Shown in pieces: positions 25,681 through 31,166 of a stretch of 64,000 nucleotides of DNA (the stretch's first letter is position 1; each line of letters starts with the position of its first letter). The position numbers were made by a program, and so were the translations under genes. The stretch covers positions 5,967,001-6,031,000 of the forward strand of contig NZ_CP071839.1 in the NCBI RefSeq assembly GCF_017526105.1, read 5' to 3'. The DNA comes from Streptomyces cyanogenus (GTDB lineage Bacteria > Actinomycetota > Actinomycetes > Streptomycetales > Streptomycetaceae). The notes beneath the pieces were generated by a model. It was not told the DNA's origin. It searched no databases and saw only the letters and a list, made by a program, of their open reading frames with translations.

Positions 25681-27048
<1,368 letters not shown>

Positions 27049-27096
27049 GGATGACTCCTCAATACGGGTGGTGCACAAAAGGTGGTACAGGGGCGC

Positions 27097-27137
27097 GGGC
27101 ACCGCGCACGCCGGTACCTCCAGTGTGCGCGGTGCCC
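27097..27137 (-). terminator. Intercistronic hairpin between glyA and sdaA
   Basis: Perfect 13-bp arms 27097-27109 and 27125-27137 with a 15-nt loop, 14 nt after the glyA stop and 49 nt before the sdaA start. It probably works as a partial terminator or mRNA-processing boundary within the operon. Confidence 0.65.
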
Positions 27138-27150
27138 CGCGAAAGGTGAC

Positions 27151-28419
27151 TTACTTGTTCAGACCCGCGTACAGCGGGTGCTTGTCGGCGAGCGCCTTCA
27201 CGCGCGCCTTGAGGGCCTCGGCGTCGTAGGACGGCTTCAGCGCCTCGGCGATCACGTCCGCGACCTCGGCGAAGTCCTCGGCCGTGAAGCCGCGGGTGGC
27301 CAGGGCCGGCGTACCGATGCGCAGACCCGAGGTGACCATCGGCGGGCGCGGGTCGTTCGGGACCGCGTTGCGGTTGACCGTGATCCCGACCTCGTGGAGC
27401 CGGTCCTCGGCCTGCTGGCCGTCCAGCTCGCTCTCGCGCAGGTCGACCAGGATGAGGTGCACGTCCGTACCGCCGGACAGCACGTTCACCCCGGCCGCAC
27501 GGGCGTCGGGAGCCGTCAGGCGCTCGGCGAGGATGCGGGCACCCTCCACCGTACGGCGCTGGCGCTCCTTGAAGTCCTCCGAGGCGGCGACCTTGAAGGA
27601 GACCGCCTTCGCCGCGATCACGTGCTCCAGGGGACCGCCCTGGAAGCCCGGGAAGACGGCCGAGTTCAGCTTCTTCGCGAAGTCCTTGCCGCGCGCGAGG
27701 ATGATGCCGCCGCGCGGACCGCCCAGCGTCTTGTGGGTGGTCGAGGTGACCACGTCCGCGTACGGCACCGGGTTCTCGTGCAGGCCCGCCGCGACCAGTC
27801 CCGCGAAGTGCGCCATGTCGACCCACAGGTGGGCCTCGACCTCGTCGGCGATCCGGCGGAACTCGGCGAAGTCCAGCTGCCGCGGGTACGCCGACCAGCC
27901 CGCGATGATCACCTTCGGGCGGTGCTCCTTGGCGAGCCGCTCCACCTCGGCCATGTCGACCAGGCCGGTCTCGGCGTCCACGTGGTAGGCGACCACGTTG
28001 AACTGCTTGCCGGAGAAGTTCAGCCGCATCCCGTGGGTCAGGTGGCCGCCGTGCGCCAGGTCCAGGCCGAGGATGGTGTCCCCGGGCTGGGCCAGCGCGA
28101 ACAGGGCCGCCTGGTTCGCGGAGGCGCCGGAGTGGGGCTGCACGTTGGCGTACTCGGCGCCGAACAGCTCCTTGACCCGGTCGATCGCGATCTGCTCGGC
28201 GACGTCGACGTGCTCGCAGCCGCCGTAGTAGCGGCGGCCCGGGTAGCCCTCGGCGTACTTGTTGGTCAGGACCGAGCCCTGGGCCTCCATCACCGCGAGC
28301 GGCGCGAAGTTCTCGGAGGCGATCATCTCCAGGGTCGACTGCTGGCGGTTCAGCTCGGCGTCGACCGCGGCGGCGATCTCCGGGTCCAGCTCGTGCAGGG
28401 GCGTGTTCAGAACAGTCAT
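27151..28419 (-). CDS. glyA: Serine hydroxymethyltransferase
   Basis: PLP enzyme that interconverts serine and glycine with tetrahydrofolate as one-carbon carrier. 422 residues, normal length. N-terminal [19 protein letters not shown] and the PLP lysine in [14 protein letters not shown] (about residue 230) are diagnostic. It begins 14 nt after the gcvH stop, so the two are co-transcribed. Within this operon it uses the methylene-THF made by the cleavage system to turn a second glycine into serine. Expression should follow the glycine riboswitch upstream of gcvT. A second glyA may exist elsewhere; not visible here. Confidence 0.96.
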
Positions 28420-28433
28420 GGGGCTACGACTCC

Positions 28434-28811
28434 TCAGCCGGCGGAAAAGGCGGTGTACTCGTCGGCGGAGAGCAGGTCGGCCGGCTCCTCCGCGACGCGC
28501 ACCTTGAACAGCCAGCCGCCCTCGAAGGGGGCGGAGTTCACCAGCGACGGGTCGTTGACGACGTCCTCGTTGACCTCGGTGACCTCACCGGTGACCGGCG
28601 AGTACAGGTCGGAGACCGACTTCGTCGACTCCAGCTCGCCGCAGGTCTCGCCCGCGGACACGGTGGTGCCGGCCTCGGGGAGCTGGACGAAGACGACGTC
28701 ACCGAGCGCGTTGGCCGCGTGCTCCGTGATGCCGACCGTCGCGACGCCGTCCTCGGCGGTCGACAGCCACTCGTGCTCCTTGCTGTAGCGCAGCTGCTGG
28801 GGGTTGCTCAT
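28434..28811 (-). CDS. gcvH: Glycine cleavage system H protein
   Basis: Lipoyl carrier of the glycine cleavage complex, 125 residues. The lipoylated lysine is K64 in [15 protein letters not shown]. It shuttles the aminomethyl group from P protein to T protein and returns reduced lipoate to L protein. ATG at 28811 with AGGAG upstream. The gap to gcvT (about 120 nt) holds no strong hairpin. gcvP, which decarboxylates glycine, is not in this window. Confidence 0.96.
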
Positions 28812-28930
28812 GGCCTGAATTCTCCTGTACGCGGGGAAGTGCTGATGAAGGGGGACTGCTGAGGAACGCGCGTGAGCAGCGCTGATGTGCCCGACATCAC
28901 GTTCCGGCACGACGCGGGGCTACGACGGTG

Positions 28931-30058
28931 TCACTTCTGGCGCTTGTAGAACGGCAGCGCCACGACCTGGTACGGCTCGTGGGTGCCCCGGATGTCCACG
29001 CCGACGCCCTCGGTGCCCGGCGCCGCGTGCGCCGCGTCGACGTAGGCCATCGCGATCGGCCTGCCCAGGGTGGGGGAGGGGGCACCGGAGGTGACCTCGC
29101 CGATCACCTCGCCGCCGGCGACCACGGCGTACCCGGCGCGCGGCACCCGGCGGCCCTCGGCGACCAGGCCGACCAGCACCCGCGGCGGGTTCTCCTGGGC
29201 CCGGGCGGCGGCCTCGGCGAGCGCCTCGCGGCCCACGAAGTCGCCCTCCTTCTCGAACTTCACCACCCGGCCGAGCCCGGCGTCGAACGGGGTCAGCTCG
29301 CGGGTCAGCTCGTGCCCGTACAGCGGCATGCCCGCCTCCAGGCGCAGCGTGTCCCGGCAGGACAGCCCGCACGGGACCAGTCCGGCGCCCTCGCCGGCCT
29401 TGGTGAGCGCCTGCCACAGCTCGACGGCGTGCTCAGGCCGCACGAACAGCTCGAAGCCGTCCTCGCCGGTGTAGCCGGTGCGGGCGATCAGCGCCGGCAC
29501 GCCGGCGACCGTGCCGGGCAGGCCGGCGTAGTACTTCAGGCCGTCCAGGTCGGCGTCGGTGAGCGACTTCAGGATGCCGGGGGACTCCGGTCCCTGCACG
29601 GCGATCAGCGCGTACGCGTCCCGGTCGTCACGGACCTCGGCGTCGAATCCGGCGGCCCGCTCGGTGAGCGCGTCCAGCACCACCTGGGCGTTGGAGGCGT
29701 TGGCCACCACCATGTACTCGGTCTCGGCCAGGCGGTAGACGATCAGGTCGTCCAGGATGCCGCCGTCGGCCTGGCAGATCATGGTGTAACGGGCGCGGCC
29801 GACGCCGACGGAGGCGATGTTGCCGACCAGGGCGTGGTTCAGCAGGGCGGCGGCGTCGGTGCCGGTGACGGTGATCTCACCCATGTGGGAGAGGTCGAAC
29901 AGTCCGGCCCGGGTGCGCACGGCGAGGTGCTCGTCGCGCTCGGAGCCGTAGCGCAGGGGCATGTCCCAGCCGGCGAAGTCGGTCATCGTCGCACCGAGCG
30001 AACGATGCACGGCATCGAGCGCGGTGTGGCGCAGCTCAGTGGGTTCGGTACTGCTCAT
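28931..30058 (-). CDS. gcvT: Glycine cleavage system T protein (aminomethyltransferase)
   Basis: Transfers the methylene group from H-protein-bound aminomethyl to tetrahydrofolate and releases ammonia. 375 residues, usual length. Family features: DFAGWDMPLRYGS at the start, FDLSHMGEI, the folate-site aspartate in the ADGGILDDLIVYR region, and GRVVKFEKEGDFVGREAL in the C-terminal domain. ATG at 30058 with GGGAG upstream; an in-frame upstream start would enter the riboswitch. First gene of the gcvT-gcvH-glyA-sdaA operon; its leader (30087-30318) contains a tandem glycine riboswitch, so high glycine should raise expression. Confidence 0.96.
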   Translation of the reverse strand: MSSTEPTELRHTALDAVHRSLGATMTDFAGWDMPLRYGSERDEHLAVRTRAGLFDLSHMGEITVTGTDAAALLNHALVGNIASVGVGRARYTMICQADGGILDDLIVYRLAETEYMVVANASNAQVVLDALTERAAGFDAEVRDDRDAYALIAVQGPESPGILKSLTDADLDGLKYYAGLPGTVAGVPALIARTGYTGEDGFELFVRPEHAVELWQALTKAGEGAGLVPCGLSCRDTLRLEAGMPLYGHELTRELTPFDAGLGRVVKFEKEGDFVGREALAEAAARAQENPPRVLVGLVAEGRRVPRAGYAVVAGGEVIGEVTSGAPSPTLGRPIAMAYVDAAHAAPGTEGVGVDIRGTHEPYQVVALPFYKRQK

Positions 30059-30086
30059 CGGTCGGTCGTCTCCCAGGGCAACAGGG

Positions 30087-30112
30087 ATGGGGCGAGGAAC
30101 GTTCCTCCCCAT
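30087..30112 (-). promoter_or_regulatory. Expression-platform hairpin of the glycine riboswitch
   Basis: On the mRNA a 12-bp stem with a small bulge forms between 30112-30101 and 30100-30087. Its 5' strand shares bases 30110-30112 with the P1 stem of aptamer 2, so the two cannot form together. It precedes the gcvT ribosome site by about 15 nt and has no U-tract. Likely the off-state structure, released when glycine stabilises P1. Confidence 0.65.
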
Positions 30113-30318
30113 CTGTCATCGGAACCTGAGAGGTTCGCCACGACCGCCACAGGGACGATCACGGCTTGCACCTTGGGTGGAGCCGCTGTCGCAGCGGCCC
30201 GCTTTTCAGATGTGCCTCGCCCACGCGGTAACGGTGCCTGAGAGATTCAAGGGAGGGACTTGCTCCTTCGGCGCCCCAGCGGCACAGACGTACGGCTGGG
30301 AACTCTCCCGCGCGGATT
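30107..30318 (-). ncRNA. Tandem glycine riboswitch
   Basis: Two glycine aptamers in series in the gcvT leader. Aptamer 1 spans about 30318-30222 and ends with CUCUCAGGCACC; aptamer 2 spans about 30219-30107 and ends with CCUCUCAGGUUCC. Both carry the conserved 3' CUCUCAGG block of the family. P1 of aptamer 2 pairs 30212-30207 (CAUCUG) with 30115-30110 (CAGAUG). Linker between them is short, as in the cooperative tandem class. The element controls an operon for glycine breakdown and serine formation. Confidence 0.9.
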
Positions 30319-30497
30319 CAAACGGCCGGTATGCAGTTGGCGCGCACATCATTGCACGCCGCACCGCGGCCAGCCAGAGCACGCTGCTTGTGACCGACCT
30401 GTGGCACCACGCACACGAAGCACCGACCGTTGCCCATTACCTTCTCTTTACATACAACGGGGATGGGACGACCGAGCCCACTGGGAGGACGATCACG

Positions 30498-31166
30498 GTG
30501 AACAGGACCTCGGCCTACGCCACCGACGCCGGCATCGCGGTACCGAAGCCGCCCTCCGCCCTGGCCCGCGAGCGCGGCGCGGACCGGCCCGCCCCGGTCG
30601 TCCGCGACCTGCGCGACCGCGCGGGCCGCAGCCCGCACGCCCTGCTCTTCGGCCCCCGCGACCTGGTGGTGGTCACCGGACTGCCCGGCAGCGGCAAGTC
30701 CACCCTGATGCACCGCGCGGTCACCGGCCACCGCATCGACTCCCAGGACGCCCGCGACCGGTGGGCGGCCCGCGTGCCCCGCAGCCTGCCCTACGCGCTG
30801 TACCGCCCCCTGGTCCGCCTCGCCCACTACACCGCCCTGCGCCGCGCCCTGCGCACCGGCGAGGGAGTCGTCGTGCACGACTGCGGCACCCAGGCCTGGG
30901 TGCGCGCCTGGCTGGCCCGCGAGGCCCGGCGCCGGGGCGGCACCCTGCACCTGATCCTGCTGGACGTCAGCCCCGCGGCGGCCCGGCAGGGCCAGCACGA
31001 GCGCGGCCGGGGCGTGTCCCGCTACGCCTTCCGCCGCCACCGCCGTACCACCGCCCGGCTGCTGCGCGCGGTGGAGAAGGGCGAGCTGCCCGCCGGCTGC
31101 GGCGCGGCGGTGCTGCTGGACCGGGACGCGGCGGACGTCCTCAGGCGCGTCGGCTTCACTCGGTGA
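30498..31166 (+). CDS. P-loop kinase-like ATP-binding protein
   Basis: Protein of 222 residues with a clear Walker A, VVTGLPGSGKSTLM (about residues 56-69), and a kinase-like order: short substrate segment DSQDARDRWAARVP after it, Walker B-like VVVHDCGTQAW (about 118) and a basic lid RYAFRRHRRTTARLLR (about 174). This resembles the AAA_33 / zeta-toxin / polynucleotide-kinase group, but no specific substrate can be named. GTG at 30498 follows GGGAGG with 9 nt spacing. It diverges from the glycine operon, and its own promoter must lie in 30320-30490; longer upstream frames run through the riboswitch and were rejected. Confidence 0.8.
   Translation: MNRTSAYATDAGIAVPKPPSALARERGADRPAPVVRDLRDRAGRSPHALLFGPRDLVVVTGLPGSGKSTLMHRAVTGHRIDSQDARDRWAARVPRSLPYALYRPLVRLAHYTALRRALRTGEGVVVHDCGTQAWVRAWLAREARRRGGTLHLILLDVSPAAARQGQHERGRGVSRYAFRRHRRTTARLLRAVEKGELPAGCGAAVLLDRDAADVLRRVGFTR

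Follow-up and report, generated by a model that had tools for sequence, protein, structure and literature searches.

The window analysed is a 64,000-nucleotide stretch of a Streptomyces chromosome, corresponding to positions 5967001-6031000 of a single 8.77 Mb contig. Pfam analysis demonstrated that the genes gcvT-gcvH-glyA-sdaA follow one another on the minus strand, downstream of a tandem riboswitch (Table 1). The 80 best GcvT relatives were from Streptomyces throughout, with 89-97% identity. A divergent gene on the plus strand (30501-31166) encodes a small P-loop protein (Pfam AAA_33) and lies upstream of the riboswitch.

Table 1. Features computed for the gcvT riboswitch locus (window positions)
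Feature	Position	Strand	Basis
Glycine aptamer 1 (RF00504)	30216..30320	-	67.0 bits, E 9.4e-12
Glycine aptamer 2 (RF00504)	30103..30215	-	38.5 bits, gathering score 32
Aptamer-2 P1, 5' strand, CACATCTG	30207..30214	-	Rfam alignment
Aptamer-2 P1, 3' strand, CAGATGGG, common to P1 and hairpin	30108..30115	-	Rfam alignment
Competing hairpin, core: GATGGGGAGGA, loop ACGT, TCCT, bulge CG, CCCCATC	30086..30113	-	Fold, -14.9 kcal/mol
Extended hairpin: four outer pairs, one G-U; whole P1 3' strand covered	30080..30117	-	Isolated-segment fold, -16.7 kcal/mol
SD-like GGGAGA of gcvT, outside hairpin	30069..30074	-	Sequence
gcvT	28931..30058	-	ATG 30058-30056; Pfam GCV_T + GCV_T_C
gcvH, open frame, actual start likely internal	28434..28910	-	Pfam GCV_H, residues 40-155 of 158
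glyA	27151..28419	-	Pfam SHMT
sdaA-type L-serine dehydratase, open frame	25681..27102	-	Pfam SDH_alpha + SDH_beta

Only two RF00504 matches above the gathering score were identified in the window; they are adjacent and both on the minus strand, and constitute a tandem glycine riboswitch. They are followed by glycine-breakdown genes, the placement expected of the RF00504 class. In the Rfam alignment, P1 of aptamer 2 pairs 30214-30207 with 30115-30108, with one pair mismatched. The host genome contained four RF00504 matches forming two tandems, the second of which precedes gcvP. RF00504 was present in all 121 Streptomyces genomes sampled, in 100 of the 101 genomes of a family sample and in 116 of the 148 genomes of a class sample, the three samples having some genomes in common. 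Six matches, compared with the usual four or fewer, were found in two genomes of the family sample (G131 and G142) and in one of the class sample (G215), which suggests that these may carry an extra tandem riboswitch.

The riboswitch itself is already known and is widespread in Streptomyces. In S. griseus, activation by glycine through the glycine riboswitches of gcvTH and gcvP has reportedly been observed. The gcvTH and gcvP riboswitches described from S. griseus, S. lividans (PMC8079986) and S. avermitilis (PMC8780764) share with the present locus the genus, the genes and the tandem RF00504 aptamers. In the portions of PMC8079986 and PMC8780764 consulted, no hairpin anatomy or stop mechanism of the Streptomyces glycine riboswitches was found.

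Folding placed a hairpin between aptamer 2 and gcvT. The first-pass annotation had located this hairpin at 30087-30112; it is present, but its core is one pair longer, spanning 30113-30086. Three bases had been counted as common to the hairpin and aptamer-2 P1, and this overlap exists but is larger, since the core takes six of the eight bases of the P1 3' strand (30113-30108) and the extended form takes all eight. The hairpin and aptamer-2 P1 are mutually exclusive, as had been proposed, and their computed overlap is more complete than was claimed. The eight bases 3' of the core are CCTGTTGC and contain no U-tract, and a pattern scan of 29900-30600 identified no terminator-like site with a T-run, in agreement with the earlier view that this is not a canonical terminator. 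Among the Streptomyces leaders, five T of eight was the highest content reached, in only 2 of 101. The gcvT platform of Bacillus subtilis is a canonical terminator with a U-tract, from which the Streptomyces gcvT hairpin differs in having none. It had also been stated that the ribosome site is left uncovered, and the SD (30074-30069) and the ATG (30058-30056) indeed lie outside the hairpin, the extended form of which stops 5 bases short of the SD. In the Streptomyces leaders measured, the right arm ended at least 4 bases before the SD, with folds trimmed at the SD.

The stability of the hairpin was compared with that of random segments of the same window. A 28-base fold of -14.9 kcal/mol or better was obtained from 136 of 6000 random 28-base windows, and a 41-base fold of -17.5 or better from 1026 of 6000 random 41-base windows. 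Of 800 random 60-base stretches, 148 contained a fold as stable as the core hairpin. Nor did the whole leader stand out from its shuffles: its z was -0.94, and 33 of 200 shuffles folded equally well or better. The stability of the hairpin is therefore unremarkable for this DNA and not beyond chance. Term-seq of S. clavuligerus set highly structured transcript ends apart at a boundary of -23 kcal/mol, and Rho or other mechanisms were suspected for the less-structured class, as given in part of PMC8269248. This boundary was reached by only 2 of 101 Streptomyces gcvT leaders (37 C), so the gcvT site would belong to the less-structured class. The U-less stem of the window, at about -17 kcal/mol, is likewise weaker than the boundary of the highly structured class.

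To follow the hairpin in relatives, 137 unique leaders were collected from 160 loci, with no separate tally of loci that lacked the motif or had no start that could be recognised. An alignment was made of 55 distinct Streptomyces leaders of at most 58 bases, namely the window and 54 others; it omits L074, which has the same sequence as the window, and leaders longer than 58 bases, among them the ones that carry palindromic repeat insertions. All 18 columns of the left arm, the P1 3' strand included, were invariant in 55 of 55 aligned leaders. The right arm differed in length and sequence and was still complementary to the left arm. The nine core pairs were standard in 97.8% of 491 cells, and this value fell to 48.5-60.6% when the partner was slid by 1-3 columns. 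The GAGG just past P1 was invariant as well, and its partner CCTC paired in 53 to 55 of 55 leaders at each of the four positions, plus one GU cell.

Covariation of the hairpin in relatives had been named by the first-pass annotation as a check, with its absence counting against the hairpin. In the nine core pairs of the 55 distinct Streptomyces sequences, no two-sided covariation was observed, which is formally the unfavourable outcome; on the other side stand 21 of the 491 cells in which a change on one side alone preserved pairing (GU or UA), compared with 11 unpaired cells, and right arms that differ between genera. Within the genus this check is blind: the same bases serve as left arm and as P1 strand, and they show no variation in the alignment. 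A column shuffle returned the observed value, since one side of the stem is fixed, and is uninformative.

With shuffled downstream sequence, 5.24 of 8 P1-3' bases paired and the energy was -15.3; with the real sequence, the values were 6.43 of 8 and -19.2. The leader's own shuffle mean was beaten by 85 of 97 leaders for P1-3' pairing and by 92 of 97 for energy, counts that do not amount to a probability since the leaders are related. A single-sequence duplex test, from which one gcvT leader was skipped as too short, was mostly not significant: 14 of 120 gcvT leaders reached p <= 0.05 with the P1 strand and 28 of 120 with GAGG included (Fisher over genera, 0.10 and 0.16), and of 77 gcvP leaders 10 did so with the P1 strand (Fisher, 0.04) and 0 with GAGG included (Fisher, 0.65). 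With these limits, the conserved register in relatives, rather than the stability, is what goes beyond chance. The U-less hairpin opposing P1 is on this comparative basis a conserved variant platform, whose mechanism, set out below, is a proposal.

Outside Streptomyces, downstream pairing took in four or more of the eight P1-3' bases in 16 of 20 gcvT leaders (15 genera), two of the 20 being very short; the leaders were cut off at the SD and the count was made on their minimum-energy folds. The right arms differed between genera, for example CCATCTG (L217), CCGTCTG (L222 and L230) and CCCCTGTC (L195). In the inner stem past GAGG, the first position was AU in 39 cases, GC in 4, CG in 3 and GU in 1, and the second was CG in 9, UA in 9, AU in 2 and UG in 2; these types were tallied only where the fold pairs them, which biases the counts towards pairing. 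The P1 strands varied in step, with C opposite G in 41 and A opposite T in 11 of 59 distinct contexts and 7 others. Two family relatives of one genus (g7), L164 and L178, had an inner hairpin CCCC..GGGG followed by the T-rich stretch TTTCGTCATTCTTTG, which is nearer to a U-tract than what is seen in Streptomyces.

The contrast with the sister riboswitch ahead of gcvP is the most useful addition to what is known of this riboswitch. For this comparison, whole leaders of both genes were folded alike, and those without a recognised SD were dropped (gcvT, 4 of 101 in Streptomyces and 2 of 20 in others; gcvP, 5 of 31 and 0 of 46). Earlier counts of SD overlap were discarded, because only gcvT leaders had been trimmed before the SD and the split was favoured by construction. 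An arm with at least 4 expected pairs to the SD-to-start region was found in 68 of 72 gcvP leaders (26/26 Streptomyces, 42/46 others) and in 1 of 115 gcvT leaders (0/97 Streptomyces, 1/18 others). A switch helix over the SD or start, the mark of an SD-sequestering platform, is thus a feature of the gcvP leaders and not of the gcvT leaders. The gcvP helix GGAGGCC-GGCCTCC was 86% paired in register, compared with 43-57% when slid, in the 71 of 77 leaders with the GGAG anchor. The gcvP leader of the host fits this SD-pairing scheme with 8.6 expected pairs. Judged from these pairings, the gcvP sister riboswitch looks translational, and a single arm seems to feed two different types of output.

Because minimum-energy folding of the full leader fails to recover the aptamers, the energies of the two gcvT states were compared under imposed helices only; left unconstrained, the leader reaches a lower energy (-133.4) than in either state, in a fold that lacks the native aptamers. 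When both states carried identical aptamer helices, the hairpin state (-105.2) was favoured over the P1 state (-99.7) by 5.5 kcal/mol, and by 7.9 when fewer helices were imposed, in a two-state model that takes in neither ligand nor tertiary contacts. The hairpin would therefore likely be the default, and glycine binding would have to pay to keep P1; a hairpin state of lower modelled energy is what a ligand-ON switch would need. The modelled fraction of unpaired SD was 0.27 with the hairpin and 0.06 with P1, or 0.09 and 0.09 in another model run. SD openness is low in both states and is not reduced by the hairpin, which argues against masking of the SD by the hairpin.

We consider it moderately probable that the gcvT riboswitch is a glycine-ON attenuator acting at the transcript level without a U-tract, in which Rho or processing is likelier than a purely intrinsic stop. 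Without glycine, the closing strand of aptamer 2 (30115-30108) would pair downstream and form the hairpin ahead of gcvT; at or soon after the hairpin, RNA polymerase would pause, or the RNA would be released or trimmed, and little gcvT-gcvH-glyA-sdaA mRNA would be made. With glycine bound, aptamer 2 would hold the strand in P1, no hairpin would form and transcription would continue. The stop would most likely require Rho or represent processing back to the stem; these are favoured over a purely intrinsic stop because the stem has moderate stability and no U-tract follows it. What the computations show are the aptamers, their overlap with the hairpin, the conserved register, the missing U-tract and the position of the SD outside the hairpin; what we infer from them is which way the switch works, that there is a stop and that Rho takes part. 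The first-pass annotation did not choose among a Rho-independent stop, a Rho-dependent stop and translation; comparative and published data now lean to early ends of the transcript rather than to a masked SD. In part of the S. avermitilis Term-seq study, the glycine riboswitch ahead of gcvT is among the cis-regulatory units with an early 3' end, and only about 25% of ends have a U-rich motif, the authors suspecting Rho or processing for the others (PMC8780764). Less in line with this reading, a figure legend in PMC4681348 presents the riboswitch ahead of SCO1378 (glycine dehydrogenase, gcvP) of S. coelicolor as a case of attenuation. A gcvP riboswitch, translational-looking here, is thus also presented as attenuation, and early ends do not single out the gcvT platform.

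A polymerase stopped without Rho by a U-less, I-shaped terminator is an unlikely account of the gcvT hairpin. The stem is GC-rich and without a U-tract, and U-lacking structured ends in Streptomyces (part of PMC8269248) and I-shaped hairpins in other GC-rich actinobacteria (parts of PMC5335608 and PMC12288462) provide precedents, but at about -17 kcal/mol the stem is weaker than the -23 boundary that so few leaders reach. Autonomous termination by such hairpins is moreover disputed in the part of PMC5335608 consulted, which cites conflicting evidence, and the suspicion of Rho or processing for U-lacking ends in S. avermitilis (PMC8780764, in part) points the same way. A chance fold of a GC-rich stretch, conserved through P1 and other constraints, would be in line with the frequency of equally stable folds, the weak single-sequence tests and the pairing of 5.24 of 8 P1-3' bases even with shuffled downstream sequence. 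We regard such an incidental hairpin as very improbable, since the invariant GAGG lies past P1 and retains its CCTC partner, the register is specific (97.8% vs at most 60.6% slid), and most leaders beat their own shuffle mean, though they are related.

Improbable, in our estimate, is a translational switch in which glycine alters ribosome access to gcvT and early transcript ends, if any, follow from that. The translational-looking gcvP sister copy (68/72 leaders, and the host copy too), the SD only 5 bases beyond the extended hairpin, a translational tandem glycine riboswitch before gcvT of another bacterium (part of PMC13104608) and the translational platforms that Actinobacteria are said to favour (part of PMC6944388) are in line with it. 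Against it, 114 of 115 gcvT leaders have an arm that does not reach the SD-to-start region, and the hairpin does not lower modelled SD access.

The glycine-ON attenuator proposed here can be set beside known systems, as far as the parts of the sources consulted describe them. The B. subtilis gcvT riboswitch is likewise tandem, before gcvT and glycine-ON (PMC5666159). In the tandem gcvT riboswitch of Neisseria gonorrhoeae, aptamer 2 likewise joins an alternative structure without glycine (PMC13104608), but that structure covers the ribosome site, which the Streptomyces gcvT hairpin does not, and the gcvP copy is the closer match. The U-lacking Streptomyces ends and I-shaped hairpins (PMC8269248, PMC8780764 and PMC5335608) likewise involve GC-rich hairpins without a U-tract, from which the gcvT hairpin differs in being moderately stable, part of a riboswitch and not at a gene end.

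We tentatively suggest, as a possibility somewhat short of probable, that each Streptomyces genome may carry two tandem sensors with one conserved 3' arm (GACAGA-T/G-GGGGAGG). The gcvP arm would capture the SD region and control translation, and the gcvT arm would form a U-less, Rho-assisted hairpin and control transcription of gcvT-gcvH-glyA-sdaA; the two would be interchangeable platforms on one ligand-locked strand, and which of them is used would depend on the gene, in Streptomycetaceae as in some other families of actinobacteria. This split in output was not found stated in the literature searched, which did not extend to the S. griseus study of Tezuka and Ohnishi 2014, so no priority is claimed. 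The way in which transcripts of GC-rich actinobacteria end where no U-tract follows is not settled in the literature consulted (PMC5335608, PMC12288462 and PMC8780764, each in part). A U-less hairpin under ligand control, in a genome whose sister copy is apparently translational, would be a clean test bed, offering the same signal, the same arm and two outputs, and a stop that could be switched by glycine in tests of Rho.

On the minus strand, 30081-30055 could be read as a frame of 8 codons (TTG CCC TGG GAG ...), and its TGA (30057-30055) overlaps the gcvT ATG. A start codon (ATG, GTG or TTG) 12-45 bases upstream was found in this frame in 55 of 102 unique leaders, and in the other two frames in 37 and 25. 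The small upstream ORF was not adopted, as it is missing in 47 of the 102 leaders, and the reading is further weakened by its common ATG, which sits in a block also used by the hairpin.

Unique Streptomyces gcvT leaders longer than 80 bases numbered 16 of 101, not all through a palindromic repeat. In ten leaders (L011, L018, L030, L041, L044, L066, L069, L070, L106 and L112), a GC-rich palindromic repeat was inserted in the right arm of the hairpin, with a CCCCATC-like end able to pair with GATGGGG. The repeat pattern had one match in the host genome, and the CCCCATC of the host right arm could conceivably be the leftover of an inserted repeat.
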